Assembly (NCBI GenBank): GCA_014859215.1
Contig: JACUUS010000004.1
Coordinates: forward strand, 1-33,668
DNA from: Dehalococcoidia bacterium
GTDB taxonomy: Bacteria > Chloroflexota > Dehalococcoidia > SZUA-161
Reading direction: 5' to 3'
DNA length: 33,668 nucleotides
Shown here: positions 11,840 to 33,668 of the stretch, one piece after another
How the letters are laid out: each line of letters starts with the position of its first letter
How positions within the stretch are numbered: position 1 is the stretch's first letter
Translations under genes and position numbers: made by a program
Notes under the pieces: generated by a model
The model's input: only the letters and a program-made list of their open reading frames with translations
Told to the model about the DNA's origin: nothing
Database searches by the model: none

Positions 11840-13485
11840 TGACTATGCAAGACTACTTCGGGCACATGTTCGAGGAGTTCCCCGAGGAGAGTACCTGGGA
11901 CGCCGTCATTATTGGGGGCGGTCCAAACGGCCTGATAGCAGCGGCTTACCTTGCCAGAGCCGGGTTAAAGGTGGCCCTGGCGGAGGCCCGATACGAGATC
12001 GGAGGCGGACTCGCCACTGAAGAGATACTCTATCCCTGTTACTCTACGAACCCCCACGTCATTTATCACATGATGGTCGACTACATGCCCGTCCTCAAGG
12101 ACTTCAACCTGGACGGCCCATCCCTGGTCTGGATCAAGCCTAACGCTCAGACGGGCATCGTATTCGAGGACGGGAAGTCTCTGCTTCTCGCCCGCATGAT
12201 CGAGGACACCAAGGATTCGATGAGCAAGTTCTCTTTCAAGGATGCCGTGCGGTTTGGCAAGCTTATGAGAAGCTGGCGTCGGATTGTTGATGAGATCCTT
12301 GCGCCGGCGACCTACGTACCAGTCATGACCCCTCTGGAAATGACGATGGCCTTGCAGAAGACCAGAGTCGGGACTGAAATGCTGGAACTCATCGAGCAAA
12401 GCCCCCTTGAAATAATTACGGCAAACTTTGAAAGTGACCATATCAGGACTCTTCTCCTTTACACGAGTTGCATGTGGGGCCTCGATCCACGAGAGACAGG
12501 CATCGGCATGTTCGTTGCCCTGATGCTCTGTCGCGGGATGAACAAGTGCTATTGCTACGGCGGTTCACACAAGTTCGCGGGCGCACTGGCGCGAGAGATA
12601 TACAGGGCCGGCGGGTTGATACTCGAACACGCCCCCGTGACCAGAATTGTCTTTGAGGGCGGCCGCGCCGCCGGTGTCGAGCTCGCTGAGGGTCGCACTT
12701 TGCACAGTAAGGCTGTCTTGTCGACCCTCGACCCGCAAACTACCTTCTTCGACCTCCTGGGTGCTGACAACCTGCCGGCCGATCTTAAAGACTACGTGGC
12801 AAACTGGAAATCCGACAAATGGAGCTACTACACGCTGCATGTAGCCACACATGAACCACCCCGGTACAAGTGCGATGACCCCTGGATTAGCGATGCCTTC
12901 ATGACCATTTTCGGCCTGGAGGGTACCGGTCAACTGCTTGCACACTGGGACAGGGTCATGGCGGGAGACATCGGCGACATTTTCGGCGGTCACGCAACCT
13001 GCCAGACCATATTCGACCCCATGTTATCCGACAAGGCAGGCAAGCATGTTTCCTTTTTCCAGATGCACGCACCTTACGATATCACGGGAGGCTGGGACCA
13101 GAGAGGGAAAGAGCTGGAAGAGGCGATACTGGCGAAGTGGCAGGAAGCTGCCCCCAATATGACCAGGGAAACCAGGATTATGACCACCTTCGAGACGCCG
13201 CGCGATATCCAGATAAGATTCCCGAATATGCGCCGTGGCGGGATAAAGCACGGCGACTACCGGCCCATCCAGCTCGGCTCATTCCGTCCAAACCAGGACT
13301 GCTCCGGTACGAACACGCCGATACAGGGTCTCTATGTGTGCGGAGCCTCCACTTATCCAGGGGGAATGGTCCTTGGAGGTCCTGGTTATCTTGGAGCCAA
13401 TAAGGTGGCTGAAGATTTGGGAGTCCAGAAATGGTGGAAGCCGACACCCGAGATGCAGCGTTACCTGAAGACATACATCGAATAA
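11839..13485 (+). CDS. CrtI/phytoene-desaturase-like NAD(P)/FAD-dependent oxidoreductase
   Basis: WDAVIIGGGPNGLIAAAYLARAGLKVALAEARYEIGGGLATEE; C-terminal GLYVCGASTYPGGMVLGGPGYLGAN. ORF track starts at 11761; ATG 11839 overlaps the upstream stop (TGATG), likely translational coupling. Confidence 0.9.
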   Translation: MTMQDYFGHMFEEFPEESTWDAVIIGGGPNGLIAAAYLARAGLKVALAEARYEIGGGLATEEILYPCYSTNPHVIYHMMVDYMPVLKDFNLDGPSLVWIKPNAQTGIVFEDGKSLLLARMIEDTKDSMSKFSFKDAVRFGKLMRSWRRIVDEILAPATYVPVMTPLEMTMALQKTRVGTEMLELIEQSPLEIITANFESDHIRTLLLYTSCMWGLDPRETGIGMFVALMLCRGMNKCYCYGGSHKFAGALAREIYRAGGLILEHAPVTRIVFEGGRAAGVELAEGRTLHSKAVLSTLDPQTTFFDLLGADNLPADLKDYVANWKSDKWSYYTLHVATHEPPRYKCDDPWISDAFMTIFGLEGTGQLLAHWDRVMAGDIGDIFGGHATCQTIFDPMLSDKAGKHVSFFQMHAPYDITGGWDQRGKELEEAILAKWQEAAPNMTRETRIMTTFETPRDIQIRFPNMRRGGIKHGDYRPIQLGSFRPNQDCSGTNTPIQGLYVCGASTYPGGMVLGGPGYLGANKVAEDLGVQKWWKPTPEMQRYLKTYIE

Positions 13486-17134: not shown

Positions 17135-18862
17135 ATGGCAGACGCAACATTCGATGCGGTCATTGTCGGCGGGGGAAACAAGGGGCTCCTCCTTGCCATG
17201 TATTTGATCAAGTACGGCGGCCTGAGCGTCGGCATCTTCGAACGCAGGCACGAAATCGGCGGCTGCCTCTCAACGGAAGAGATTTCAGCGCCCGGCTTCC
17301 GTGGCAACGATCATGCAAACATCATTCTGCCCTGGTACTATGCTCCGGTTTGGCGCGACTTCCCTGAGTTCTGGGATTATGGCGCCCAGTGGGACCAGCA
17401 TCTCTGCGCCGACGGTTTCGTATTCGGCAATAACGAGAGTGCGATCGCAATTTATAGCGATAAGTGGGACCCGACCGGGGAGCGCACGGCAAAAGAGATT
17501 GCACGCTTCTCAAAGAAGGATGCCGACACGTGGCTCAGGCTCATGGCCCTGGAGAAAAGTGACGAGTATCAGAGGGTCCAGATGGACACGCTTTTCCTGC
17601 CGGCTGAAATGCGGCTCGCTCCCGGAGTTATGGAAAGGCAAATGGCTGTCTATCCCAAGCTGGTGGAAGCCGGCTTTGTTCCCGATTCGGCGATACTGGC
17701 GGCCAGCACGATGCGCTCTGCCAGGGAGTGGTTTGTAAGCCCCGAACTCCAGTCGTGCATCCTCCGTTTTGCGGTCTCTTCAGTTAATGACGTAAGCGAA
17801 CCGGGACAGGGCATGAATGCGATGGGTTTTGCGGCAACCCTCCCCACTATAGGCTTCGCCAGGGGAGGTACTCATCAAGTCGCCCATGCCGCACATCAGG
17901 TGCTGGTCCAGAACGGGTGCAAGTTCTTCACCCACGCTGAGGTTAAGAACGTAATCATCGAGAACGGTTCTGCAACGGGCATCCGCCTTAGCGACGGGTC
18001 CGAGATCGGCGCACGAAAACTGGTCGTATGCGCCGGTTTGAGTCCCGAGCAGCTCTGCTTCGATATGATAGGCCGGCAATACATTGATGAGGTACTGGCA
18101 AGACGTGTCGAGCTTATCGAGAACACCTTCGGCTGTCTCATGTGGTATACATTCGCTATCCACGAGGCCCCGAAATACAAGGCGGAAGCATTCAATCCGG
18201 ATATACATGATTGCCAGTGGCTTGGCCTGCAGCCCGACCCTGACCCCGAACATATCGCACGGGAATGCAGGTGGGTGAAACTGGGACTCTGGCCGCCGTT
18301 CGAGGACTACGCTCCTACCGTTGGCGTCCATAGTCTCGTGGACCCTTCTTATGCCCCACCAGGCAAGCATGTCGCGCAGAACGAGCAACTGGGTCCGCCC
18401 GCGGGACGCCATACCCCAAAGGAGTGGATCGAAATCAAGAAGCGTTACGCCGATGAACTCATCCAGATCTGGGAGCAGTACGCGCCCAACATGACCTGGG
18501 ATAATGTTATCGGCGTGGACACCAACAGTCCGTACGATAACCTCCGCATGAAGAACCTGGCCCCGCACGGCACCATGGCCGGCATAGACCGCACAACATT
18601 CCAGATTGAAAACAACCGCCCTACACCTGAGCTGGCAAACCATCGCACTCCCATAAAGAATCTCTACGCGACCGGTGGCTGCTGGCATGTAGGATCGAAC
18701 GCCGGCTCCAGCGAGTCATACAACTGCTACAAGATCATCGCGACGGATATGGGCCTGGGCAAGCCCTGGGAGGAACCCGGCAAGGAAGAGCCCGATTCAT
18801 TGATCCAGCAACTGTGGGAAGTGAGAAAGCGCGTACGGGCCTCGGCAACCCGCAAGCCTTGA
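17135..18862 (+). CDS. CrtI/phytoene-desaturase-like FAD-dependent oxidoreductase (divergent)
   Basis: FDAVIVGGGNKGLLLAMYLIKYGGLSVGIFERRHEIGGCLSTEE; C-terminal NLYATGGCWHVGSNAGSSESYN. Confidence 0.87.
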   Translation: MADATFDAVIVGGGNKGLLLAMYLIKYGGLSVGIFERRHEIGGCLSTEEISAPGFRGNDHANIILPWYYAPVWRDFPEFWDYGAQWDQHLCADGFVFGNNESAIAIYSDKWDPTGERTAKEIARFSKKDADTWLRLMALEKSDEYQRVQMDTLFLPAEMRLAPGVMERQMAVYPKLVEAGFVPDSAILAASTMRSAREWFVSPELQSCILRFAVSSVNDVSEPGQGMNAMGFAATLPTIGFARGGTHQVAHAAHQVLVQNGCKFFTHAEVKNVIIENGSATGIRLSDGSEIGARKLVVCAGLSPEQLCFDMIGRQYIDEVLARRVELIENTFGCLMWYTFAIHEAPKYKAEAFNPDIHDCQWLGLQPDPDPEHIARECRWVKLGLWPPFEDYAPTVGVHSLVDPSYAPPGKHVAQNEQLGPPAGRHTPKEWIEIKKRYADELIQIWEQYAPNMTWDNVIGVDTNSPYDNLRMKNLAPHGTMAGIDRTTFQIENNRPTPELANHRTPIKNLYATGGCWHVGSNAGSSESYNCYKIIATDMGLGKPWEEPGKEEPDSLIQQLWEVRKRVRASATRKP

Positions 18863-20338: not shown

Positions 20339-20402
20339 ACTGCTGTGCACTCTTGGCGCGTGAAATTGGAATCCAGCCAATGCCGTGATAAGGAGGCAAC
20401 AA

Positions 20403-22034
20403 ATGCCGGGACAATATGATGTGATTGTGATCGGTACCGGCCCCAACGGGCTCGAAATCGGCGCCTACTTGAGCAAAGCCGGGCTAAAGGTGCTCATGCT
20501 CGAGAAGAGGTACGAGGCAGGAGGAGGCCTGGCCACCGAGCAGGTAACTCTGCCCGATTTCTTCCATAACACGCATGCCGTCTACCACATGATGGTGGAC
20601 TACGCACCCGTGTACAGCGATTTCAAACTCGAGGAGCAATACGGCGTCAGGCACATTCATCCCGAGCTGCAGTGGGCCATGCCTCTCGACAACGGCAAGT
20701 GCATTTGCATATACCGGGACGTGGACAAGACCTGCGCCTCGATCGCGCAGTTCTCCCAAAAAGACGCTGACAGCTATCGAAAAATGTATCACCAGTTCCA
20801 CGAGCTCGTGGATTCCTTCGTTGCTCCGGCGACGTTCTGTCCCCCTGTTCCTGCCCCGCTCCAGGCGGCCAAGCTCGACCTCACCGAGGTGGGCCGGCAG
20901 ATTACGGCTTTTTCGGAACAGACTCCAGAGGAAGTGGTGAACAGTCTCTTCGAGAATGATCACGTTCGTACCCTGATGCTGTATATCTGCTGTCATTGGG
21001 GGCTCGACTATAACCAGTCCGGGGTCGGTTACCTGATACCCCTATACCTGAACCGCGCTACGAGTTATCGTCTCACAGCGGGAGGCTCACACAGAGTATC
21101 CAATGCGCTGCTCAAATCTATTTTTGAGCATAAGGGGCAGATTAGGACAAGCGCTCAGGTCACCCGAATACTGACTGAGAATGGAGCAGCAAAAGGCGTT
21201 GAACTGGAGGACGGTACCCAGATCATGGCCGGCAAGGCGGTAGTAAGTACGATAGACACCCATCAGACTTTCTTGAAATATGTGGGCGAGGACAAGCTGG
21301 ACAGAGATTTCGTCGATATGATCAAGATCTGGCACTGGGAGAAGTGGAGTCTCTGTGACTTGCATCTCGCACTGAATGAGCCACCCAGGTTTAGAGCTGC
21401 TGAAACGAATCCTGACGTCAATAGGGCGTTCGTCTACCTGCTGGGATACGAGAGGCTGTCCGACCTCCTCGATCACTGGGAGTCGATGCGCACAGGCGGG
21501 CTCCCGGCCGGCGCGGGCTTCAACTGCTGTTTCCCGAGCATTCACGACCCATACCAGGCGCCTCCGGGGAAAGCTTCAGGCCTCCTGTCACAAATGGCGC
21601 CGTTCACACTGGATGGTAGCGGGCCGAACAAGTGGCTCAAGAACAGCTTCAGGCAAGAATGCGCTGAGCGCATGGCGGCAATCCTCGAGCGTTACGCTCC
21701 CAACATGACAAAGGACAACATCCTCTGGACTTACCTTACCACGCCGGCGGATATCGAAAACAAATTCGCTAACATGGTCCAGGGATCCTACAAACAGGGG
21801 GCCTATCATCCTTTGCAGATGGGGTACTTGAGGCCCAACCAGGACTGTTCTCTGAACCGGACCCCGGTAAAGAACCTCTATCTGGGCGGATGCAGCGTCT
21901 ATCCAGGCGGGTGCGTGATCTGGGGACCTGGCTATAACTGCGCCAACAGCATTGCCGAGGATCTGGGCATAGAGAAGTGGTGGTCAGAGCCGTCGATAGT
22001 AACGGCTGCGCGCGAGAAGGGGCTTATCGACTAG
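20403..22034 (+). CDS. CrtI/phytoene-desaturase-like NAD(P)/FAD-dependent oxidoreductase
   Basis: YDVIVIGTGPNGLEIGAYLSKAGLKVLMLEKRYEAGGGLATEQ; C-terminal NLYLGGCSVYPGGCVIWGPGYNCAN. SD AAGGAGG places the start at ATG 20403, not 20385. Confidence 0.91.
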   Translation: MPGQYDVIVIGTGPNGLEIGAYLSKAGLKVLMLEKRYEAGGGLATEQVTLPDFFHNTHAVYHMMVDYAPVYSDFKLEEQYGVRHIHPELQWAMPLDNGKCICIYRDVDKTCASIAQFSQKDADSYRKMYHQFHELVDSFVAPATFCPPVPAPLQAAKLDLTEVGRQITAFSEQTPEEVVNSLFENDHVRTLMLYICCHWGLDYNQSGVGYLIPLYLNRATSYRLTAGGSHRVSNALLKSIFEHKGQIRTSAQVTRILTENGAAKGVELEDGTQIMAGKAVVSTIDTHQTFLKYVGEDKLDRDFVDMIKIWHWEKWSLCDLHLALNEPPRFRAAETNPDVNRAFVYLLGYERLSDLLDHWESMRTGGLPAGAGFNCCFPSIHDPYQAPPGKASGLLSQMAPFTLDGSGPNKWLKNSFRQECAERMAAILERYAPNMTKDNILWTYLTTPADIENKFANMVQGSYKQGAYHPLQMGYLRPNQDCSLNRTPVKNLYLGGCSVYPGGCVIWGPGYNCANSIAEDLGIEKWWSEPSIVTAAREKGLID

Positions 22035-22054
22035 GACCTGAAAGGAGCTTGCTA

Positions 22055-22306
22055 ATGCTATTCAGATCGACAGGCCTGGGAAAGACAGAGCTGGTGGGCA
22101 AAGTTGATACGATGAAGAGGCAGGGAGATTACCTGATCATGTACGTGGATGTGATTGAGCCTGTGAAGTGGCGGATTCGGGCATCGATGAGTTTCAAGGA
22201 CCTGGCAAGGGTAATGGGTTGCTGCGTCAAGGGCTCAATTATGCGTTTCATATTGTCTCCGAGGCAATGGCGAAATAGGTCGCCCGAGCATCCAGGAGAC
22301 TTCTAG
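22055..22306 (+). CDS. Small uncharacterised protein (about 83 aa)
   Basis: SD AAAGGAG (22041-22047), then ATG 22055: MLFRSTGLGKTELVGKVDTMKRQGDYLIMYVDVIEPVKWRIRASMSFKDLARVM... Occupies an otherwise empty gap in the operon. Confidence 0.6.
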   Translation: MLFRSTGLGKTELVGKVDTMKRQGDYLIMYVDVIEPVKWRIRASMSFKDLARVMGCCVKGSIMRFILSPRQWRNRSPEHPGDF

Positions 22307-22386
22307 GATTGTTCGCTCCGGTGTCCTCCCCCGGTTTGTGAAGGAAATGAGCTGCTCCAGGCCTGAAATAAGAGAGGGGGCCAATC

Positions 22387-23904
22387 ATGGCTAAGGCAAA
22401 TTATGACGCAATTGTCGTTGGGGCCGGGTTCGGCGGCAGCAGCTGCGCGGCCATACTCGCCAGGCGCGGGCTAAACGTATTGCTGCTGGAGAAGAATTCC
22501 CGCGCGGGCGGCAAGGCGATGAGTCTCTCCAAGAGCGGGTTCACCTATACAGCCTGGGTGGTAATCGCCGCGCCCGTAATAGGCAACCTCATTGAAAACC
22601 TTCTGCAGGAACTGGGTTTGCAGGACAGGGTCAAGGTGGTAGCGCCGCCTAACCCTGACAGCATATATCTGAACTCAAGCGGCAATTATGTTTCCATGCC
22701 CCAGATGGCGCCGGGCGAAATGGACCCCAACAAGGTTTTCGACTGGCTTGAAGTCGAGGAGGATGAGCGCGCCGAGGCCCTGCGCCTTTTCGTGGACCTG
22801 ACAACGATGACTCCCCAGGACATCGACAGGCTGCACGATGTCAGTCTTAACGAATGGTTCAGCCGTTATACAGTGCCGAAGGGGCTCTACGGCTTCCTGG
22901 TCAGCTTATGCTGCGACGGCATGTTCATGGTCCCCGTCGATGCCCTAGCTGCTTCGGAAGGAATCCGTACTCTCCAGGACGTTCTGCTGCGAAGCGGCGG
23001 ACTCTTCTGTCAGGGTGGCTGGGGTCGGGTTCCCGAGGTATTCGCACAATCGGTCGAAGAAGACGGTAGCAGGGTGTTAATGCGCACAAGGGTCGAGCGA
23101 ATCAACGCCTCGCACGGCAGAGTGACAGGCGTTGTAACAAACAAAGGCGTCTTTGAAGCCCCTATCGTTATCAGCAATGCGGGAATACAACCTACCGTAC
23201 TCAAACTGGTAGGCGAAGAGCATTTCGATCCCAGTTATGTCAACTATGTTAAGGACCTCGTCCCTTCCTGGGGCATGATGGGTATGCGTTATTTCCTTAA
23301 CGGTAAGGTCACAGACGCGCCGTACGGGGTCATATTCTCACCTGACACCCCCTGGAGCCTTGAACGCTACATCAAGGCCCGGGCGGGACTCGGACCCAAG
23401 GAAGGGGTCGTTTACTTCGAGGCCCCTTCAAATTACGATCCGTCTGCTGCGCCCACTGGTAAGCACGTGCTTCTCACCGGCTTCTGGTGTCCCCCCGATC
23501 CGCAGCTCACCGAGAAGGAGAAGAAGGAGTGGTCGCAGCGCGGTGAAGACATCGTATTCAAGGCTTTTCCCGATCTCCCCGGGCGGATCGAGTCGAAGGA
23601 AGGCTACTCCACGCGTGATGTGTGCGTATTGACGCGAGACCAGGTCCTGCCTGGTCAGGGCGGCGAATGCATAGGCCTCGGCCAGATCGTGGGCCAGTGT
23701 GCCAGGTACAAGCCGGCAGCCAAAGCGCCCCTGCAAGGGCTGTTCTACGTTGGTTGCGACGCCGGCGGTTACGGCGTGGGAATCCATCAGGCGACCGACT
23801 CAGGCATCAATGTCGCGAACATGGCGCTCAGGTACCACCGCCTCCACACCGGCATGCGTGTATCCCCGCTCCAGGGTGTGCCCTCGGCGAAGGGAGCCAG
23901 ATAG
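22387..23904 (+). CDS. CrtI/phytoene-desaturase-like NAD(P)/FAD-dependent oxidoreductase
   Basis: YDAIVVGAGFGGSSCAAILARRGLNVLLLEKNSRAGGKAMS; C-terminal GLFYVGCDAGGYGVGIHQATDSGINVANMAL. Confidence 0.91.
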   Translation: MAKANYDAIVVGAGFGGSSCAAILARRGLNVLLLEKNSRAGGKAMSLSKSGFTYTAWVVIAAPVIGNLIENLLQELGLQDRVKVVAPPNPDSIYLNSSGNYVSMPQMAPGEMDPNKVFDWLEVEEDERAEALRLFVDLTTMTPQDIDRLHDVSLNEWFSRYTVPKGLYGFLVSLCCDGMFMVPVDALAASEGIRTLQDVLLRSGGLFCQGGWGRVPEVFAQSVEEDGSRVLMRTRVERINASHGRVTGVVTNKGVFEAPIVISNAGIQPTVLKLVGEEHFDPSYVNYVKDLVPSWGMMGMRYFLNGKVTDAPYGVIFSPDTPWSLERYIKARAGLGPKEGVVYFEAPSNYDPSAAPTGKHVLLTGFWCPPDPQLTEKEKKEWSQRGEDIVFKAFPDLPGRIESKEGYSTRDVCVLTRDQVLPGQGGECIGLGQIVGQCARYKPAAKAPLQGLFYVGCDAGGYGVGIHQATDSGINVANMALRYHRLHTGMRVSPLQGVPSAKGAR

Positions 23905-23932
23905 AGCAGGCAGAACTTCTGAGGAGGTCCAT

Positions 23933-24697
23933 ATGGCCATAGATTACGAGAAGAAGGGTCATATTCGAATTATGACCTTCAATAATCCCGAACGCAGAAA
24001 TGCTCTGACCACGGCTGACTTCCTGGAAATGGACAGGATAGATGAGGAGTTTCAGGCTGATCCAGACGCGTGGGTGCTCATAATGACAGGCGCGGGCGAC
24101 AGGTCCTTTTCCGCCGGCGCGGATCTGGAGGAAGCGATCGGCAAAGCCACCAGCGCGGGAATCAAGCTCGAACCGAGGGCCAAACGCTGGTTCAGTCACT
24201 GTTACAAACCCCTGATCTCCGCAATAAACGGCTACGCGGTAGCTGGCGGCACCGAGTTCATCCTGCTGACAGACATCCGCATCGCCGCCGAGCATGCCAT
24301 GCTGGGAATCCAGGAAGTACGCTGGGGCCTCGTGCCCCTGGGCGGCTCCTGCGTGAACCTTCCACGCCAGGTCTCATGGTGCAAGGCAATGGAGATTCTT
24401 CTCATCGGGGACCGGCTCACCGCGCAGCAAGCCCTGGACATCGGCCTGATAAACATGGTGGTCCCCAAGGAAGAACTGATGCCAACCGCCATGAAAGTCG
24501 CGGAGCGCATCTGCGAAAACGGCCCCCTGGCCGTGAGACTGGTTAAAGAGATCGTACTCAAGTCCATCAGCCAGCCCAGGGAACTTGGATTCGTTACGGA
24601 GATGGAGCTTGGGGCAGCCGCGTTTAAGAGCGAGGATGCGAAGGAAGGCCCCCTGGCTTTCTTCGAGAAGAGGAAACCCAAATTCAAAGGTTGCTGA
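23933..24697 (+). CDS. Enoyl-CoA hydratase/isomerase (crotonase) family protein
   Basis: Starts MAIDYEKKGHIRIMTFNNPERRNAL after SD GAGGAGG; crotonase motifs AGGTEFILLTDIRIAAEHAMLGIQEVRWGLVPLGG keep both expected Glu. ORF track begins upstream at 23699, inside the preceding gene. Confidence 0.94.
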   Translation: MAIDYEKKGHIRIMTFNNPERRNALTTADFLEMDRIDEEFQADPDAWVLIMTGAGDRSFSAGADLEEAIGKATSAGIKLEPRAKRWFSHCYKPLISAINGYAVAGGTEFILLTDIRIAAEHAMLGIQEVRWGLVPLGGSCVNLPRQVSWCKAMEILLIGDRLTAQQALDIGLINMVVPKEELMPTAMKVAERICENGPLAVRLVKEIVLKSISQPRELGFVTEMELGAAAFKSEDAKEGPLAFFEKRKPKFKGC

Positions 24698-24741: not shown

Positions 24742-25899
24742 ATGGCTGAACGTGTAGCCATAGTGTCGGTAGCCCAGACCAGGTACAGCCCCGACAGATC
24801 AGATGTGAATGAAGGCGAACTGGCTTACGAAGCCATCAAGCAGGTCCTTGACGAGACCGGACTCGGTTTCGAACGGGATGGTACGGGGATAGACTCCGCG
24901 GTCACATGTTCCCAGGACTTCTGGGACGGCCGCACAATCTCGAATATGAATGTGCAGCCCTTCGTCGGGGCCCACCTTTCGCATGAAGACAAAGTCGCCG
25001 AGGACGGCCTTACGGCTGTTTATACGGCCCTCTCCCAGATTCTGTCAGGCCACCAGGACATAGTATTGGTGGTCGCACACTGCAAGGAATCGCAGACGGA
25101 CAGGAGCCTGGTAGAGAACGCTGCCTTTGATCCCGCCTTCCTGCGTGTACTGGGTCTCGATTTCCTTATCGGCGCGGCCATGCAGGCCAAACGCTATATG
25201 TTCAGGTACGGGATCACGCCCGAGCAATGCGCCAAAGTCGCAGTCAAGAACCGCGGCAACGCCCGGAATAACCCTTATGCACAGGAACCTATGGATATCA
25301 GCGTCGAAGATGTACTCGGGTCCCGCATGCTGGTTTCACCCATCAGGCTTCTGGATACCAGACCCGTATCTGACGGCGCTTGCGCCATGATCCTGGCCAA
25401 AGAGTCCAAGGCCAGAAAATTGACCTCGAAACCTGTCTGGATCCTTGGTGTGTCAAACTGCTATGAAACGCACTACCTAGGCGATAGAGATTTGGCCGAG
25501 TGTGATGCTCTGACGACAGCCGCCAGGAAGGCTTATTCCATGGCCGGCATCAAGAACCCCATCAGGCAAATCGACGTGGCCGAAATCTCCGAGGAGTATT
25601 CGTACCAGGAGCTTCTATGGCTGGAGGGGCTCGGCTTTTGTGGCCGCGGAGAGGCAGGTAAGCTCATAGATTCAGGAGCCACCAGGATGACGGGTAAGCT
25701 TCCGGTGAACCCGTCAGGCGGCATGCTGCCCGGTAATCCTGTATGTGTGGCCGGAACGGCCAGGGTCGCCGAAGCAGTGCTGCAACTCCGCGGCGAAGCC
25801 CAAGGCAGGCAGGTTGACGGAGCCATGGTGGCTCTTGCACACGGTGTGACAGGAGCGTGCGGGCAGCATCAGGGCGTCATGATCCTGGGCAACAGGTAG
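24742..25899 (+). CDS. Thiolase-superfamily protein, non-canonical active site
   Basis: SCP-x-like start MAERVAIVSVAQTRYSPD; thiolase C-terminus VNPSGGMLPGNPVCVAGTARVAEAVLQLRGEA; Cys, His and GHP positions substituted. Confidence 0.87.
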   Translation: MAERVAIVSVAQTRYSPDRSDVNEGELAYEAIKQVLDETGLGFERDGTGIDSAVTCSQDFWDGRTISNMNVQPFVGAHLSHEDKVAEDGLTAVYTALSQILSGHQDIVLVVAHCKESQTDRSLVENAAFDPAFLRVLGLDFLIGAAMQAKRYMFRYGITPEQCAKVAVKNRGNARNNPYAQEPMDISVEDVLGSRMLVSPIRLLDTRPVSDGACAMILAKESKARKLTSKPVWILGVSNCYETHYLGDRDLAECDALTTAARKAYSMAGIKNPIRQIDVAEISEEYSYQELLWLEGLGFCGRGEAGKLIDSGATRMTGKLPVNPSGGMLPGNPVCVAGTARVAEAVLQLRGEAQGRQVDGAMVALAHGVTGACGQHQGVMILGNR

Positions 25900-25912
25900 T
25901 TGGAGGTACGAA

Positions 25913-27082
25913 ATGCCGAACAGGGTAGCGATAGTCGGAATCGGTCAAACCTATCACACGAGCAAGCGTCCGGACGTCAACCAGGCGGAAATGGTCAACG
26001 AGGCAGTACGCGCCACCCTCGCCGACGCCCAGCTGCGAATAAAGGACATTGAGGCTGTTTTCTGGAGCAATATGGAGACCTTCGAAGGCATCTACCTTCC
26101 CGATCACTGGATGGCCGATGAAGGCGGGGCATTCATGAAACCCGGACTCAAGGTGTGTACCGGGGGCACGAGCGGTGCTTCCGTAGTTTGTGAAGGCTTC
26201 TACTTTGTGGCATCAGGGCTCTACGACATCGCCATGATAATCGGCTTCGAAAAGCAGGACTCCGGCGATACCACCGCGGCGATTTCCGCTGCTGCCACTC
26301 CCATGTGGGGTAAGGGCGCGACCACCGGCGCCATAGGCGAATTCGCCAAGCAGGCGCTCACTTATATGCAGGAATCCGGGGCTACGGAGGAGCACGCCGC
26401 CCAAGTCCGGTTAAAGGCAGACCGGAACGCGTGCCGGAACCAGTACGCACACCTTAAGCTCGGTCTGAAAAGCATTGACGAAGTCCTCAAATCGCCATAC
26501 CTGGTCTGGCCGCTGCGAATCCTGGATTTCTGTCCGCAGTCATGCGGCGCCTGCGCTCTCATTTTTGCCTCGGAGAAGGCGGCGAAGAGAATTCACAAGC
26601 GGCCTGTCTGGATTGCGGACGTCGAGACTGTGCACCAGGAACCGTTCCGGGCAGGCTCCTTCGGCGATCCTACCGGAAAAGAGACATACACCCAGCATGT
26701 AGCGTGTGAGCGGCTGTATAAGAGAAACGGGATCACGAATCCTCGCACGGACATCGATATGGCGGAGATTTACGAGCCTTCAAACTGGGAGGAGATGAAT
26801 CTCTATGAACATTTCCACTTCTGCGGTAAGAATGAAGCCTGGAAGCTGATCGAGAAAGGCGTCACCGAAATAGAGGGCGAATTCCCCGTAAACCCTTCGG
26901 GCGGCGTTATTGCCACGAATCCTATTGGCGCCACTCCCACAATCCGCGTCGCTGAAGCTGCCCTCCAGATAAGGGGGGACGCCGGTGAGCACCAGGTAAC
27001 AAGAGACGTTAAGACAGCTATTGCTACGGCTCTCGGCGGGCCGAACTGGACCGTAATGACGCTGCTGAAAAGGTCATTGTAG
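25913..27082 (+). CDS. Thiolase-superfamily protein, non-canonical active site
   Basis: MPNRVAIVGIGQTYHTSKRPDVN, VCTGGTSGASVVCEGFYFVASGLYD, AEIYEPSNW, NPSGGVIATNPIGATP. Confidence 0.87.
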   Translation: MPNRVAIVGIGQTYHTSKRPDVNQAEMVNEAVRATLADAQLRIKDIEAVFWSNMETFEGIYLPDHWMADEGGAFMKPGLKVCTGGTSGASVVCEGFYFVASGLYDIAMIIGFEKQDSGDTTAAISAAATPMWGKGATTGAIGEFAKQALTYMQESGATEEHAAQVRLKADRNACRNQYAHLKLGLKSIDEVLKSPYLVWPLRILDFCPQSCGACALIFASEKAAKRIHKRPVWIADVETVHQEPFRAGSFGDPTGKETYTQHVACERLYKRNGITNPRTDIDMAEIYEPSNWEEMNLYEHFHFCGKNEAWKLIEKGVTEIEGEFPVNPSGGVIATNPIGATPTIRVAEAALQIRGDAGEHQVTRDVKTAIATALGGPNWTVMTLLKRSL

Positions 27083-27091
27083 GAGGTGATG

Positions 27092-27610
27092 ATGCCTGCA
27101 CAACCCTCCAGGAGAAAAGCGGACACCTCGCCGGAGTACATCCAGGTGAAGTTCGACAGGCCGCGTCCTTATCGATGGTCAACTGGCAAATACCTCGGCA
27201 AGGTCTATAAAGAGGCCAAAGAGAACAGGAAAATGGTCGGCAACAGATGCCCAAAGTGCAAACAGATACTCTGGCCGCCCCTTCCCGTGTGCGGGAGATG
27301 CAAGGTCGAAGCCGGCGAAGACTGGGTGGAGTTGCCGCAAACCGGCACCGTCATCCAGTACACCTATCTGGTCTTTCCCATGTGGGACCCGCATCGCGGG
27401 GAAAGATGGGCTAATCCGTACCCCTCCGCCATTATCGAGCTTGACGGCTGCGGGGTCTACCACCGCTACTGGCTGGAGGAAACCGACAAGGAGAAACTCA
27501 AGGTAGGCATGAGGGTCCAGGCAGTGTGGAAAGAAAACGAGGAAGAGCTGGGTGAAGGCATGGGAGACATCCTGTACTTCAGGACTATCGAAGAACAGGG
27601 GGCACGCTGA
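27092..27610 (+). CDS. DUF35 Zn-ribbon/OB-fold protein
   Basis: CPKC...CGRC ribbon; OB-fold tail (SAIIELDGCGVYHRYW...KVGMRVQAVW). ORF track starts at GTG 27086; SD AGGAGG at 27081 favours ATG 27092. Confidence 0.9.
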   Translation: MPAQPSRRKADTSPEYIQVKFDRPRPYRWSTGKYLGKVYKEAKENRKMVGNRCPKCKQILWPPLPVCGRCKVEAGEDWVELPQTGTVIQYTYLVFPMWDPHRGERWANPYPSAIIELDGCGVYHRYWLEETDKEKLKVGMRVQAVWKENEEELGEGMGDILYFRTIEEQGAR

Positions 27611-28077
27611 TGACCATAACCAGAAAGCTCGAGGGTCTGGATGTCTGGATATACAACGGGCAAATCAATATTCCCAATACGTACTCGGCTGGCGCTACGG
27701 GGAGCAAGTTTCTTACCGAGCTTCGAGACCGCAAGAAGATCACAGGAACAAGATGCCGGAGCTGTAACTACGTGTATGTGCCTCCCAGATTAACCTGCAA
27801 GTACTGCTTTCAGAAGATGAGCGAATGGACTGAGGTCAGCGACCGCGGTTCATTGCTCACTTACGCTATTGCGCACCAACCAACGCCGGTCCTGCCTCAG
27901 GCGCCGCCCATAGTATACGGGATAGTCCAGCTCGACGGCGCAAGCACCGGCCTCGTCCACTTCCTGGGCGAGGTAGCTCTCGAGGACCTGAAAATCGGCA
28001 TGAGGCTGCAGGCGGTCTTCAAGCAGGACCGTACGGCAAGCCTGCTTGACATTAAGTATTTCAGACCGCTGGATTGA
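27610..28077 (+). CDS. DUF35 Zn-ribbon/OB-fold protein
   Basis: CRSC...CKYC ribbon; YGIVQLDGASTGLVHFLGEV...KIGMRLQAVF. Start overlaps upstream stop by one nt (TGATG). Confidence 0.9.
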   Translation: MTITRKLEGLDVWIYNGQINIPNTYSAGATGSKFLTELRDRKKITGTRCRSCNYVYVPPRLTCKYCFQKMSEWTEVSDRGSLLTYAIAHQPTPVLPQAPPIVYGIVQLDGASTGLVHFLGEVALEDLKIGMRLQAVFKQDRTASLLDIKYFRPLD

Positions 28078-28120: not shown

Positions 28121-29299
28121 ATGGAGTTCGCGCTAACCCCTGAGCAGGAGCAGTTCGCTGAGGAATTCCGCAGCTACCTCAAGGCGCATCTGACTCCCGC
28201 CTTGAGAGCGGAGATGGAGCATAAGGGTGAAATGGGCAAGTCTCCTCTTCACAAAGAGTTCATCCGTCAGATGGGGCGCGATGGGTGGCTTGGAATAGGC
28301 TGGCCGAGAGAGTACGGCGGCCAGGGGCGCGCCCCCATGGAGCAGCACATCTTCTATGAAATCGTTGCCTACGAGAGAATCATGCTGCCCCTGATGGCCC
28401 TGAACGCTGTCGGACCGGCGCTCATGCGCTACGGCTCGGATGAGATGAAAGCCGAAATACTTCCGCGAATCCTCCGTGGAGAACTCGAGGTCGCTATAGG
28501 ATACACGGAACCCGAAGCAGGCACCGATCTCGCTTCCCTCAAGACGACTGCCGTGAGAGACGGCGGCCACTATGTCATTAACGGGCAGAAGGTCTTTACG
28601 AGTTGCGCGGAGTATGCGGACTATCTATGGATAGCGGCCCGAACAGACCCTCATGCCGCCAAGAAGCACCACGGCATTTCAGTATTCTTCTTCCCAATGA
28701 ATACTGCGGGGATAACAATTGAACCAATGTGGCTGCTCGGCGGGGAGAGAAACAATTCCACCTTCTATGACAATGTCAGGGTGCCGACAAGTTGCCTTGT
28801 GGGCGAAGAAAACAAGGGCTGGAAGTACATAACTACCCAGCTCGACTTTGAACGAATAGCGCTCAATCCTTCCTCACCCATGAGGCGGAATATCGACGAT
28901 ACGATCGGATGGGCCAGGGAGACCAGCGTGGACGGTTCGCCCGTCCTTAACCGTCCATGGGTCAGGACAAGGTTAGCGGAACTCATAATGAATGTCGAAG
29001 TCCTGAAAATGCTCAATTACTACGTGGCATGGCTGATAACCGCAGGCATCGTGCCCTATGCCGAGGCATCCATGGTAAAGGTTTTCGGCGCTGAACTCTA
29101 CCAGCGAGTCAATCATTCCTTGATCGAGATCATGGGTGAATTCGGGCAGCTTCAGTCGGGTTCGAAGTGGGCGCCCCTGAAAGGCCGGATAGAGCAGGAT
29201 CTGAGAAGCGATGTCATCCTGACTTTCGGCGGCGGAGCAAGCGAAATCCAGCGAAATATTATCGCCATGGCGGGGCTGGGGATGCCGCGTTCCACGTAG
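28121..29299 (+). CDS. Acyl-CoA dehydrogenase family protein
   Basis: FALTPEQEQFAEEFRSYLKAHL, GWLGIGWPREYGGQG, IGYTEPEAGTDLASLKTTAVRDG, GGGASEIQRNIIAMAGLGMPR. Confidence 0.94.
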   Translation: MEFALTPEQEQFAEEFRSYLKAHLTPALRAEMEHKGEMGKSPLHKEFIRQMGRDGWLGIGWPREYGGQGRAPMEQHIFYEIVAYERIMLPLMALNAVGPALMRYGSDEMKAEILPRILRGELEVAIGYTEPEAGTDLASLKTTAVRDGGHYVINGQKVFTSCAEYADYLWIAARTDPHAAKKHHGISVFFFPMNTAGITIEPMWLLGGERNNSTFYDNVRVPTSCLVGEENKGWKYITTQLDFERIALNPSSPMRRNIDDTIGWARETSVDGSPVLNRPWVRTRLAELIMNVEVLKMLNYYVAWLITAGIVPYAEASMVKVFGAELYQRVNHSLIEIMGEFGQLQSGSKWAPLKGRIEQDLRSDVILTFGGGASEIQRNIIAMAGLGMPRST

Positions 29300-29339
29300 A
29301 GCCCTTCAGAAAGAAGCTGTCTCCCGGGAGGTGAAATCC

Positions 29340-29849
29340 GTGACCCGGAACATCTACGAAGAGCTCCAGGCAATGGTAGGACAGGAAGCCGGACCATTTC
29401 TGGCCCCGAACGCTGTCAATGAAGCCATGATCCGGCACTGGTGCGAGGCCATGGAAGACGGCAATCCGCTTTATTCTGATGAAGAATATGCGGCGGGAAG
29501 CAAGTACGGCGGCATCATAGCTCCTCCACAGATGGTGCAAGCCTACTGCATGCCTCCGCTGTGGCCAAAAAGAGCTATCTCGGACCCACAGGCAAAGGCA
29601 GTCCAGATGATGGACGACGCAGGATACAAGGGCGTCGTGGCAACGACAACCTCACAGGAGTATTTCCAGCCCATGCGGCTGGGTGACAGGCTGAGCTACA
29701 CGATAAAACTGGTCAACGTTTCGCCGGAGAAGACTACGAGGCTGGGCCGCGGGCACTTTCTGACCTCGGAATATACTTACAGGAACCAGAAAGGAGAAGT
29801 GGTCTGCGTACAGCCCTTCACGGTCCTGAAATTCGTTCCCGCGATTTAG
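29340..29849 (+). CDS. MaoC-like / FAS1-like dehydratase-domain protein
   Basis: Hot-dog fold motifs WCEAMEDGNPLYSDEEYAAGSKYGGIIAPPQMVQAY, YFQPMRLGDRLSYTIKLVNV. SD GGGAGG with GTG 29340 preferred over GTG 29331. Confidence 0.85.
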   Translation: MTRNIYEELQAMVGQEAGPFLAPNAVNEAMIRHWCEAMEDGNPLYSDEEYAAGSKYGGIIAPPQMVQAYCMPPLWPKRAISDPQAKAVQMMDDAGYKGVVATTTSQEYFQPMRLGDRLSYTIKLVNVSPEKTTRLGRGHFLTSEYTYRNQKGEVVCVQPFTVLKFVPAI

Positions 29850-29860
29850 AAAGGGATTAT

Positions 29861-30292
29861 ATGAAAACGAACTCCATCTACTGGGATGAGGTGAAGGAAG
29901 GTGACGAGCTTCCCTCCGAATCACGGAACATTACGCGCACAACAATCGTCGCTACGGCCATTGCCACACGTGATTTCACCCCCGTTCACCACGACCATGA
30001 GGCCGCGCAAAGAGAAGGCGCCAGGGATATTTTCCTCAATATTCTGAGCACAGGCGGCCTTATCGGCAGATACCTGACTAACTGGAGCGGGGCCGAGGGA
30101 GAGCTGAAGAAGATTACCATCCGCCTGGGGGCCACCGTCTTTCCGGGTGATACCCTTACGTCTTCGGGCAAGATAACCAGGAAATATTCCGAGAACAATG
30201 CCCACCTGATAGACGTTGACTTCAACCTAGTCGTAGCGATGGGCCCCCATGCCTGGGGGACCGCCACGATGGCGCTGCCGGTTAAGGTCTAA
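29861..30292 (+). CDS. MaoC-like enoyl-CoA hydratase
   Basis: Hydratase-2 type motif ATRDFTPVHHDHEAA; LGATVFPGDTLTSSGKITRKY. Confidence 0.9.
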   Translation: MKTNSIYWDEVKEGDELPSESRNITRTTIVATAIATRDFTPVHHDHEAAQREGARDIFLNILSTGGLIGRYLTNWSGAEGELKKITIRLGATVFPGDTLTSSGKITRKYSENNAHLIDVDFNLVVAMGPHAWGTATMALPVKV

Positions 30293-30305
30293 GGAGGCTT
30301 ACCTC

Positions 30306-31532
30306 ATGTTCGATGAGTATCTGGCCAGAAGGTACCGGACCACCGTCCGGCCCAGGAAAGAAGACTACCTGGTCAAGGATAATGTTGCAATAGTCGGGAT
30401 CGGAGCTACAGAATTCTCGAAGGACTCTGGACGAAGCGAGATTCAGATGGTGTGCGAGGCCATCAAAGAAGCCGTCGACGACGCAGGTCTCCGGATGGAA
30501 GACATTGACGGGTTGGTCAGGTTCGTAATGGATTACACTGATGAAATGCACCTGGTCAGTTCGCTTGGTATTCCGGAACTCGCGTATTTCGGCGAATGCG
30601 GTTGGGGCGGCGGCGCGAGTTGCGCCACCGTCGCTCACGCCGCTGCTGCTGTAGCAGCCGGAGTGGCAAACTGCGTGGTATGTTACCGCGGCATGAACGA
30701 GCGTTCGGGCAGGAGGTACGGCCGCGTACCGGGCGCCGAACAGGTGATGATATCCCCGAATGACCACTTTGGCTCCCTCATGCCTTTCGGTTTTGCCACC
30801 CCGCCATCCTGGGTCGCCATGTTCGCCACCAGGTATATCCACGAGTTCGGCGCCACCGCCGAGCAATTCGGCTGGGTGTCCATTGTCTGCCGTGAGCATG
30901 CCTGCATGAATCCGAAGGCCATGTTCTATGGCCGGCCGATTACAATGCAGGACTACCTTCAAGCTCGCATGATCGTCGAGCCCTTGAGACTCTATGACTG
31001 CTGCGTCGATTCAGACGGGGCAGTGGCTGTAGTTGTGACCAGCGCGGAGAAGGCCAGAGACCTGAAACAGAAGCCCGCCTACATCCTCGGCGCCACGCAG
31101 GGCATCGCCACACAGGGCGAGATGATGACCAGTTACTATCGACCCAGAATTTCCGGACTGCCCGAATCATGGTATGCCGGGCAGGAGCTATGGCGGATAA
31201 CAGGCTGCAGCCCCGGGGATGTCGACGTTGCACAGTTCTACGATGCCTTCACACCGCTTATTCCGTTACAACTGGAAGAATACGGTTTCTGCGGGGTGGG
31301 CGAGGGGGCCGCCTTCTGTGAAGGAGGTAACCGCATAAGGCTCGACGGTGAAATCCCGTGCAATACATCAGGCGGCCATCTCTCAGAAGCCTATATACAC
31401 GGAATGAACTTGATAGCCGAAGCGGTGCGCCAGATAAGAGGCACATCAACCGCACAGGTGAAGAAAGTAGAGCTGAGCCTTGTCACAGGCGGACTCGGGG
31501 TCCCTACAAGCGCGATTCTTCTCAGGAGGTAA
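30306..31532 (+). CDS. Thiolase-superfamily protein resembling the Ltp2-type aldolase class
   Basis: NVAIVGIGATEFSKDSGRSE; GGGASCATVAHA in place of the Cys loop; QFYDAFTP; NTSGGHLSEAYIHGMNLIAEAVRQIRG. ATG 30306 chosen over the ORF-track start at 30249. Confidence 0.87.
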   Translation: MFDEYLARRYRTTVRPRKEDYLVKDNVAIVGIGATEFSKDSGRSEIQMVCEAIKEAVDDAGLRMEDIDGLVRFVMDYTDEMHLVSSLGIPELAYFGECGWGGGASCATVAHAAAAVAAGVANCVVCYRGMNERSGRRYGRVPGAEQVMISPNDHFGSLMPFGFATPPSWVAMFATRYIHEFGATAEQFGWVSIVCREHACMNPKAMFYGRPITMQDYLQARMIVEPLRLYDCCVDSDGAVAVVVTSAEKARDLKQKPAYILGATQGIATQGEMMTSYYRPRISGLPESWYAGQELWRITGCSPGDVDVAQFYDAFTPLIPLQLEEYGFCGVGEGAAFCEGGNRIRLDGEIPCNTSGGHLSEAYIHGMNLIAEAVRQIRGTSTAQVKKVELSLVTGGLGVPTSAILLRR

Positions 31533-31538
31533 CAGCAG

Positions 31539-31967
31539 ATGGTCATGGAGTATGCTCCCGGTGTCCCACTGCTGCGTCCATACATAAACCAGGACAACGA
31601 AGGCTTCTGGCAGGGTGTGAACAGGCAGGAGCTGGTTTTCCAGAGATGCACCGAATGCGGCCTCCTCGTTCACCGTCCGCGACCTATGTGCCCCAGGTGC
31701 CTGTCAACGGACAGGGAATGGGTGCGCTCGGAGGGCAAAGGCGTCATATATAGCTGGGTAAACTTCGTCTATGCCAACGCGGCCTATCCCGGGATCAAGG
31801 TCCCTTATTCCGTCGTAGTCGTAGAAATGGTCGAGGGCGTACGCATCATCGGAAACCTGTACGACGTGACACCGGACGAGGTGAAGGTCGGGATGCCGGT
31901 GGAGGTGGTTTTCGAACGTATCGCCGATGACCTGACCCTTCCCAAGTTTAAGAGAAGGATAGCATAG
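31539..31967 (+). CDS. DUF35 Zn-ribbon/OB-fold protein
   Basis: CTEC...CPRC ribbon; VPYSVVVVEMVEGVRIIGNL...EVKVGMPVEVVFE. Confidence 0.92.
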   Translation: MVMEYAPGVPLLRPYINQDNEGFWQGVNRQELVFQRCTECGLLVHRPRPMCPRCLSTDREWVRSEGKGVIYSWVNFVYANAAYPGIKVPYSVVVVEMVEGVRIIGNLYDVTPDEVKVGMPVEVVFERIADDLTLPKFKRRIA

Positions 31968-31987
31968 CTCAGGCGAGGGTATGAGCA

Positions 31988-33163
31988 ATGAAAAACTTAA
32001 GCGGTAAAGCGGCCATCGTCGGTATCGGAACGACCGGCTTCTCCAGAGACTCCGGCATGACGGAACTCCGCATGACGTGTGAATGCATAAGGGCCGCCCT
32101 GGATGAAGCAGGCCTGGTGCCGCCGGATATCGACGGCATAGTCAAGCATACCGATGACGCCACAGACGAGCACAGCGTGACCAGCGCCATGGGAATGGGA
32201 AATCTAACCTATTTCGGCGAAAGCCGTTGGGATGGCGCGCCTTGTTCGATGTTGCTTCGCGCTGCCATCGGCGTTGCCGCCGGCGCGGCCAACTATGTCG
32301 TCGTCTATCGGGCTGTGAACAGCTCGTCACAGAGGCGAATGAGAACGAGCTCTCGGAACATGGCGCAAATGGCAACCGGGGACCTCATTCAGTGGACCTT
32401 CCACGCTCCCTTTGGTCTCCTCACCGAAAGCGGCCGCGTCGCCATGATTGTCCGCCGGTATATGCATGAGTTCGGTATAGACCGGGATGATTTCGGATGG
32501 ATACCCGTAGTCTGCAGGGAAAATGGTTCCAGGAATCCAAAGGGAATGTATTTTAACAGCCCGCTGACCTACCAGGACTACCTGTCGTCCCGCAGTATTG
32601 TCGAACCGCTTCGCGTCCTGGACTGCTATGAACCTGCGGATGCGGCCGCAGCCTTGATAGTGACGACGGCGGAAAGGGCCGGAGACCTCAGACAAAAACC
32701 GGTGTATGTTCTCGGGGCCGCACAGAGTACCGTTCCTGAGACAGAAGAAAAGAACAGCTTTTACGGTCAGAGTATCGCCGGCCTTCCCGAAGTCCGCTCG
32801 GTGGGAAAGCGTTTGTTCGCGACAGCAGGTCTCCAGCCCGGAGACATCAGGGTTGCGGAGCTTGACGATGCCTATTCCCCCCTTGTGCCAATGCAGCTAG
32901 AAGAGCTGTGCCTGTGCGATCCGGGAGGGGGTGTGGCCTTCTGCAAAGGCGGGGACCGTATCAGGAGCAGCGGGTCGTTGCCACTGAATACATCGGGAGG
33001 GTCTCTGGGCGAAGGCCACCTTTACGGAATGAACCATGTAATCGAGGCGGTCAGGCAGGTAAGAGGCACCGCTGCGACTCAGGTGAATAATACCGGACCG
33101 GTCCTGGTCGCCACAGGAGCGGGTGGACCGGCGAGCGGCCTTATTCTAGGAGGTGCGAGATGA
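31988..33163 (+). CDS. Thiolase-superfamily protein, paralogue of 30306-31532
   Basis: AAIVGIGTTGFSRDSGMTELRM; ELDDAYSPLVPMQLEEL; NTSGGSLGEGHLYGMNHVIEAVRQVRG. Confidence 0.87.
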   Translation: MKNLSGKAAIVGIGTTGFSRDSGMTELRMTCECIRAALDEAGLVPPDIDGIVKHTDDATDEHSVTSAMGMGNLTYFGESRWDGAPCSMLLRAAIGVAAGAANYVVVYRAVNSSSQRRMRTSSRNMAQMATGDLIQWTFHAPFGLLTESGRVAMIVRRYMHEFGIDRDDFGWIPVVCRENGSRNPKGMYFNSPLTYQDYLSSRSIVEPLRVLDCYEPADAAAALIVTTAERAGDLRQKPVYVLGAAQSTVPETEEKNSFYGQSIAGLPEVRSVGKRLFATAGLQPGDIRVAELDDAYSPLVPMQLEELCLCDPGGGVAFCKGGDRIRSSGSLPLNTSGGSLGEGHLYGMNHVIEAVRQVRGTAATQVNNTGPVLVATGAGGPASGLILGGAR

Positions 33164-33579
33164 CCATGGAATCGAGTCCTGCGCCTTCCGTTCCGGCTCC
33201 CCCCTTGATCTGGGAAAACACGGGTTTCTGGGAGGCCGTTAAGCTGCATCAATTAGTCTTTCAAAGATGCAAGAACTGCGGCAAATGGCTCCACCCGCCG
33301 CGCCCGTCCTGCCCATCCTGCCGGTCTCTTGAAAAGGAATGGGCCCTTTCAGCGGGCAGGGGCAAAGTGCACAGTTGGGTAACATATCGTGAATCCCCTC
33401 ATCCGGCATTCAGAGCCCCCTACTCCGTAGTGCTGGTTGACCTTGAAGAGGGCGTCAGGCTCGTCAGCAATATTGTCGACGCGCACCCGGATGAAATTTC
33501 AATCGGAATGCCGGTGGAGATAACGTTTGAAGATATTGCCGGAGACCTTACTCTCCCCAGGTTCAGAAAGGTGGCATGA
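33160..33579 (+). CDS. DUF35 Zn-ribbon/OB-fold protein
   Basis: CKNC...CPSC ribbon; APYSVVLVDLEEGVRLVSNI...EISIGMPVEITFE. ATGA overlap with upstream gene. Confidence 0.92.
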   Translation: MTMESSPAPSVPAPPLIWENTGFWEAVKLHQLVFQRCKNCGKWLHPPRPSCPSCRSLEKEWALSAGRGKVHSWVTYRESPHPAFRAPYSVVLVDLEEGVRLVSNIVDAHPDEISIGMPVEITFEDIAGDLTLPRFRKVA

Positions 33580-33580
33580 C

Positions 33581-33668
33581 ATGGATTTCGCCCTCAGCGA
33601 AGAGCAGGAAATGCTGCGCAAATCGGCCCGCGATTTCCTTACTGCTCACTGTCCCAAGTCCGTCGTCA
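33581..33668 (+). CDS. Acyl-CoA dehydrogenase, N-terminal fragment truncated by window edge
   Basis: ATG 33581: MDFALSEEQEMLRKSARDFLTAHCPKSVV, a typical ACAD N-terminus; open to the edge. Confidence 0.8.
   Translation, partial: MDFALSEEQEMLRKSARDFLTAHCPKSVV

Follow-up and report, generated by a model that had tools for sequence, protein, structure and literature searches.

Introduction

The closest described counterpart of the system treated here is the actinobacterial side-chain module of the igr type, in which acyl-CoA dehydrogenases (ACADs), the ChsH1-ChsH2 MaoC hydratase and the aldolase Ltp2 with a DUF35 partner form a retro-aldol system. In the T. curvata Ltp2 (TcLtp2), Tyr294 of a YDHF motif is the base and Tyr344 the acid, while His296 aids the oxyanion hole only, and its replacement costs the enzyme only 14-fold (PMC12329534). 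In Comamonas, DUF35 is required for aldolase activity and functions even when expressed apart from MaoC (PMC12502768). For cholesterol degradation without oxygenases in Sterolibacterium, the scheme has ACAD, enoyl-CoA hydratase and aldolase steps (PMC6208644), which means that retro-aldol side-chain cleavage under anaerobic conditions already has a precedent.

In anoxic sediments, steroids and isoprenoids are long-lived, and the lifestyle of uncultured Dehalococcoidia is largely open. Here we analyse a 33,668-nucleotide stretch of a Dehalococcoidia bacterium genome (the window; contig JACUUS010000004.1, assembly GCA_014859215.1) and, within it, an eight-gene module at 28121-33668 whose component set an initial annotation had likened to the actinobacterial system. 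Both the best solved relatives and the key residues of the encoded proteins agree with this parallel, and we consider it probable that the module is an oxygenase-free ChsE-ChsH-Ltp2 unit for side-chain cleavage, acting by a retro-aldol reaction through a heteromeric aldolase with a catalytic and a pseudoenzyme subunit. The genome under study (G000) was compared with relatives, G001, G002, G004, G006, G007 and G012 among them.

Results

Gene content of the module

All eight genes lie on the + strand in the order first annotated, ACAD-MaoC-MaoC-Ltp2-like-DUF35-paralogue-DUF35-ACAD, with the Ltp2-like start at 30306 upheld:

28121..29299, + strand: ACAD1, acyl-CoA dehydrogenase (ChsE/FadE-type partner 1; Pfam ACAD N/M/C)
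29331..29849, + strand: MaoC1, ChsH2-N-type, substrate-binding and predicted inert (PF13452; His replaced by Tyr)
29861..30292, + strand: MaoC2, ChsH1-type catalytic MaoC (4WNB_B/4W78_B match; DFxxVHHD)
30306..31532, + strand: Ltp2A, predicted catalytic retro-aldolase (6OK1_A, NF005892, Tyr294/Tyr344, trees, structure model)
31539..31967, + strand: DUF35a, Zn-ribbon/OB-fold aldolase partner (PF12172 and PF01796; 6OK1_B match)
31988..33163, + strand: Ltp2B, Ltp2 paralogue and predicted pseudoenzyme subunit (44% identical to TcLtp2; Tyr294 replaced by Asp/Glu)
33160..33579, + strand: DUF35b, second Zn-ribbon/OB-fold partner (PF12172 and PF01796, 70.8 bits)
33581..33668, + strand: ACAD2 (ChsE/FadE-type partner 2), first 29 codons, the rest on contig C194 (86-base overlap)

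Intergenic spacing ranges from -4 to 31 bases, the former where the first 4 bases of DUF35b are also the last of Ltp2B, and a Shine-Dalgarno-like sequence precedes most of the genes. The Pfam content comprises ACAD, PF13452 and PF01575 for the MaoC proteins, two PF22691 (Thiolase_C_1) proteins and two PF01796+PF12172 (DUF35) proteins; judged by sequence comparison, these families and the best solved relatives are far above chance. The gene order is kept in several relatives. The window is the whole of contig C228, which is why only 29 codons of ACAD2 fall within it.

The predicted aldolase Ltp2A

The best solved relative of Ltp2A is the crystallised TcLtp2 (6OK1_A), to which it is 54-55% identical and which it matches with 442.8 bits, the next best structure reaching 191. 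It scores 552 against NF005892, above the cutoff of 469, and its predicted structure (predicted local distance difference test, pLDDT, 76.6) finds 6OK1 as the top fold match, with template modelling (TM) scores of 0.85/0.91. The homology to Ltp2 put forward in the initial annotation is thus borne out by both sequence and fold.

In the alignment, the equivalents of Tyr294 and Tyr344 are present in 13/13 Ltp2A rows. The Ltp2A of the window reads YDAF where T. curvata has YDHF, and so is without His296. We treat YDAF as a variant and His296 as not defining, because loss of this residue costs TcLtp2 only the 14-fold cited above and because YDAF is also found in 3/75 Ltp2 among the genome-contig loci. 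Phylogeny of 30306-31532, set beforehand as a refuting test, places the protein with Ltp2: the group holding Ltp2A and Ltp2B is sister to the actinobacterial Ltp2 clade (100/100; igr, including M. colombiense, and T. curvata), with sister-group support of 94/84 and 93/80 in two trees, and Ltp2A lies outside both Sal and the thiolases.

These results support Ltp2A as an Ltp2 orthologue and predicted retro-aldolase. The superfamily is expanded in G000, where 29 matches to the Ltp2A-type thiolase-fold protein were found, and one could suppose that the two proteins are ordinary thiolases or lipid-transfer proteins of fatty acid oxidation that merely resemble Ltp2. The aldolase tyrosines, the identity to TcLtp2 and the tree grouping largely refute this explanation, which we regard as very improbable.

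Ltp2A also carries an N-terminal extension, MFDEYLARRYRTTVRP (window 30306-30380), which close relatives share but which neither the aligned T. curvata sequence nor Ltp2B has. Further Ltp2-like genes occur in G000 on contigs C186 (L046 5444-7995) and C5 (L047 1311-7069), at 51% and 40-42% identity, accompanied by DUF35 and by MaoC or ACAD genes.

The paired paralogue Ltp2B

Ltp2B differs from Ltp2A at the catalytic positions. Among 14 members, 13 carry Asp at position 294 and one carries Glu, position 344 is His in seven, Arg in three, Tyr in two, Asn in one and Phe in one, and 13 have a shortened Gly-rich loop. In the trees Ltp2B is a separate clade (100/100), as is Ltp2A; both fall in one group with a single-copy clade, and the two subtrees branch alike. 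The ratio of nonsynonymous to synonymous changes (dN/dS), taken from pairs without saturated synonymous changes, is about 0.04-0.17 and mostly near or below 0.1, which indicates that Ltp2B is kept by selection; a decaying pseudogene was rejected on this ground.

The Ltp2A-DUF35a-Ltp2B order is intact at 12/12 inspected loci, among them the two Desulfobacteraceae contigs and, in G012, an array (L058) of three such units in tandem, where DUF35b follows the first two and the third runs into the end of the contig. DUF35b comes after Ltp2B at 9/12 of these loci; at L070 it precedes Ltp2A, and L059 has no close DUF35b after Ltp2B. The second Ltp2-like gene of L070 was counted as Ltp2B by the tree, though it is labelled A by tblastn. 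One DUF35 accompanies Ltp2 in single-Ltp2 modules, and two are present in the twin modules of the same lineages.

Taken together, Ltp2B is a homologue but presumably not an active Ltp2, and is predicted to be a conserved partner without the catalytic base. The initial annotation had listed a paralogue at this place; it is present, but by its residues it is a degenerate partner rather than a second aldolase. It could instead be a second enzyme with new chemistry, forming its own homodimer with DUF35b and acting on a different substrate. The acidic residue at 294 in 14/14 members is a possible base, and the purifying selection and the separate DUF35 would fit such a role. Against it, Ltp2B never occurs without Ltp2A at the inspected loci, position 344 is variable and the loop is shortened, and we consider this explanation unlikely.

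Hydratase, dehydrogenase and DUF35 components

The MaoC genes, placed by the initial annotation at 29340 and 29861 and compared there with ChsH1/ChsH2, do have the ChsH1/ChsH2 hydratase as best solved relative (96 bits to 4W78_A for MaoC1; 81 bits to 4WNB_B/4W78_B for MaoC2). In MaoC1 a Tyr stands where the catalytic His would be (NPLYSDEE versus NPIYVDDA), whereas MaoC2 keeps the D/H dyad in DFxxVHHD. On these residues, the predicted ChsH2/ChsH1 division of labour between an inert and a catalytic MaoC holds. ACAD1 is 48.6% identical to the ACAD that heads the igr-like cluster of Mycobacterium colombiense, and the second ACAD of that cluster shares 38% identity with the ACAD2 orthologue of G007.

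DUF35a matches 6OK1_B with 100 bits, and its clade is supported at 95/91. DUF35 is indeed separate from MaoC here, as annotated; however, this is nothing special, since 21/73 MaoC-DUF35 neighbour loci among the genome contigs, mostly of (aerobic) actinobacteria, are likewise unfused, and we rejected it as a distinctive trait. Nor is it an obstacle to function, because the Comamonas DUF35 works apart from MaoC (PMC12502768). Elsewhere in the window, at 1432-2880, a ketoacyl-synthase-III-like protein adjoining a thiolase carries a DUF35 OB domain as a C-terminal fusion, and long DUF35 frames in other parts of the genome suggest more such fusions.

Oxygen and distribution

P450 (PF00067) was not found in G000 or in the 14 relatives. 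The initial annotation had noted the absence of P450 or any other oxygenase; the first part stands for all 15 genomes, P450 being the only oxygenase family searched genome-wide. As the P450 (CYP125) of an igr-type operon is absent, we call the module igr-like rather than igr. The haem-copper oxidase COX1 was not found in G000 and 13/14 relatives, and G006 gave a short match with an internal stop. An aldehyde ferredoxin oxidoreductase encoded in the window, together with the HGD-D/activase and CdhC-like proteins described below, fits an anaerobe, and the host is predicted to be anaerobic. Molybdopterin proteins are present in the genome and were not assigned to a steroid C25 dehydrogenase.

Among named relatives, the nearest come from Dehalococcoidia/Chloroflexi metagenome-assembled genomes (MAGs) and from two contigs of the Desulfobacteraceae MAG CSMAG_2842. 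Ltp2A orthologues, 78-88% identical, occur in most genomes of the family to which G000 belongs and in G012; at a strict threshold, the Ltp2B profile was found in 10/295 genomes of the class, all of them belonging to this family or to a single further family of the order. The two twin-cassette copies in CSMAG_2842 (L068, L070) suggest either transfer between phyla or a binning error. The same lineages also hold a sister module of the igr-like kind (L151, L152, L153, L158), with one Ltp2, one DUF35 and two MaoC genes of the ChsH2 type.

Neighbouring genes and the substrate

Directly upstream of the module lie the following genes:

23927..24697, + strand: EchA19-like enoyl-CoA hydratase (EchA19 best solved relative, 174.7 bits; NF051848 258 bits, below the cutoff of 400)
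24742..27082, + strand: ThlA and ThlB, adjacent thiolase-fold pair (PF22691; without the usual thiolase Cys/His)
27086..28077, + strand: DUF35c and DUF35d, presumed partners of ThlA/ThlB (PF01796; conserved in relatives)

ThlA and ThlB show EEYS and YEPS in place of HDCF, and in G002 and G007, too, the pair precedes the module; with its two DUF35 proteins (24742-28077), it suggests another heteromeric non-thiolase.

Downstream, the last 86 bases of C228 are shared, but for one mismatch, with the beginning of contig C194. After this overlap, C194 continues with the rest of ACAD2, directly followed (L150 4035-7305) by a pair of HGD-D proteins and an activase of the BadF type; proteins resembling CdhC and ParA are encoded as well. 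The join is well supported, because in G002 and G007 ACAD2 and then the HGD-D/activase genes stand on a single contig and in G004 ACAD2 is followed by HGD-D1. The HGD-D/activase genes are predicted to encode an ATP-dependent radical dehydratase or aryl-CoA reductase; no curated model matched the HGD-D proteins over its cutoff, and both benzoyl-CoA reductase and 2-hydroxyacyl-CoA dehydratase are candidates.

As to the substrate, a steroid is slightly favoured by the ChsH2-type MaoC1, the EchA19-like hydratase and a KstD-like protein encoded on contig C137 (L216 3987-5663), although in our estimate it stays just short of an even chance. The best solved relatives of the last protein are 3-oxosteroid 1-dehydrogenases (7P18, 393.7 bits; 4C3X, 286), to which it is about 40% identical, while fumarate reductases score about 133 bits. 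It carries PDYY, NES-Y and PFY segments, which we take to hold the key KstD tyrosines, and 7P18 is presumably the Sterolibacterium AcmB. An 87% identical copy is present in G001. Against a steroid, the gene stands apart from the operon, alone among unrelated genes, in a MAG with 7.7% contamination. IpdAB was not upheld as a steroid marker, the PF01144 pair of the window being SCOT-type; a GctA/IpdA-like protein on contig C101 is about as near to glutaconate CoA-transferase as to IpdA (126.9 versus 125.3 bits), and an IpdC-like protein on C5 was rejected since it scores best as FabK, below cutoff.

The same retro-aldol chemistry may alternatively act on a beta-methyl-branched isoprenoid or an alicyclic acid and so bypass blocked beta-oxidation, with CrtI/CrtO-like flavoproteins, family III CoA-transferases and the radical HGD-D enzyme in the same pathway. 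Five CrtI/CrtO-like FAD oxidoreductases (10094-13485, 17135-18862 and 20385-23904) are interleaved upstream with two family III CoA-transferases, an alcohol dehydrogenase and SCOT, and G007 shows synteny over most of this stretch; downstream, the HGD-D pair and its activase point the same way. Moreover, a comparably strong KstD match was not found in members of the family other than G000 and G001, and a MoCoBD_1 protein, expected for A-ring hydration of the AtcABC type, was not found in G000. On the other side, MaoC1 belongs to the ChsH2 type, whose form suits steroid rings, steroids are the substrates of the closest characterised Ltp2 enzymes, and the KstD-like protein of G000 has the key tyrosines. 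We hold this alternative to be possible, though not the likelier outcome.

Discussion

From gene content, orthology, the conservation of residues and cassette, and purifying selection, we infer the following complex, chemistry and substrate class. An ACAD1/ACAD2 hetero-oligomer would desaturate an acyl-CoA with a branched beta-carbon; MaoC1 would grip the bulky group as MaoC2 carries out the hydration to a tertiary 3-hydroxyacyl-CoA. In Ltp2A, the Tyr294 equivalent would deprotonate the tertiary hydroxyl, the alpha-beta bond would split, and the Tyr344 equivalent would protonate the enolate, yielding a ketone and either propionyl-CoA or acetyl-CoA. The Tyr294/Tyr344 pair, the DFxxVHHD motif and the His-to-Tyr pattern of MaoC1 support this series of dehydrogenation, hydration and retro-aldol cleavage. 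In the known DUF35-Ltp2-Ltp2-DUF35 tetramer, Ltp2B would take the place of one Ltp2; the resulting DUF35a-Ltp2A-Ltp2B-DUF35b assembly would have a single active site, and Ltp2B may be retained for substrate binding or assembly, analogous to ChsH1/ChsH2.

Several points weigh against this proposal. The Ltp2A/Ltp2B heterotetramer is a reading, if the simplest one, of stoichiometry and synteny, and co-inheritance alone would also give congruent Ltp2A and Ltp2B trees. The tyrosine roles are carried over by analogy from TcLtp2, whose motif is YDHF and not YDAF. The Asp of Ltp2B could catalyse other chemistry, and the predicted structure of this protein is of low confidence (pLDDT 56.8). The fuller picture, in which a catalytic and a pseudoenzyme Ltp2 with two different DUF35 proteins form an oxygen-free heteromer of Dehalococcoidia and of a Desulfobacteraceae lineage that acts on steroids or branched isoprenoids, possibly linked to the radical HGD-D enzyme of the same operon, is put forward tentatively.

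In the titles and abstracts of the open-licence papers that the searches found, neither an Ltp2A/Ltp2B pair nor steroid catabolism genes in Dehalococcoidia are described; to judge from these searches, the paired cassette and its occurrence in Dehalococcoidia are new. A complete Ltp2-type unit in P450-free genomes is a candidate oxygen-free route for cleavage at a fully substituted carbon, and the twin cassette suggests a two-part aldolase for bulky or branched molecules. If true, the pair of a working and a broken aldolase would be a new asymmetric pseudoenzyme complex beside ChsH1/ChsH2.

With the Mycobacterium igr system (ChsE1-ChsE2, ChsH1-ChsH2, Ltp2) the module has in common two ACADs, an inert and a catalytic MaoC, DUF35 and an Ltp2 with both tyrosines; however, it has no P450, an unfused DUF35, a second, degenerate Ltp2 with a second DUF35, another gene order, YDAF for YDHF and an apparently anaerobic host. 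The oxygenase-independent cholesterol side-chain pathway of Sterolibacterium denitrificans likewise combines ACAD, hydratase and aldolase without an oxygenase, but belongs to a denitrifying betaproteobacterium, and the MoCoBD_1 proteins expected for AtcABC are missing from G000. CtSal-CtShy, the Comamonas C5 side-chain aldolase-hydratase, shares a thiolase-fold aldolase with DUF35, yet has a YDCY/Gln active site and a homomeric MaoC and is distant from Ltp2A in the tree. Finally, the T. curvata Ltp2-ChsH2(DUF35) complex (6OK1) shares the identity noted above, the fold, the DUF35 partner and Tyr294/Tyr344; it is built as a symmetric tetramer from a single kind of Ltp2, whereas two kinds are encoded here.

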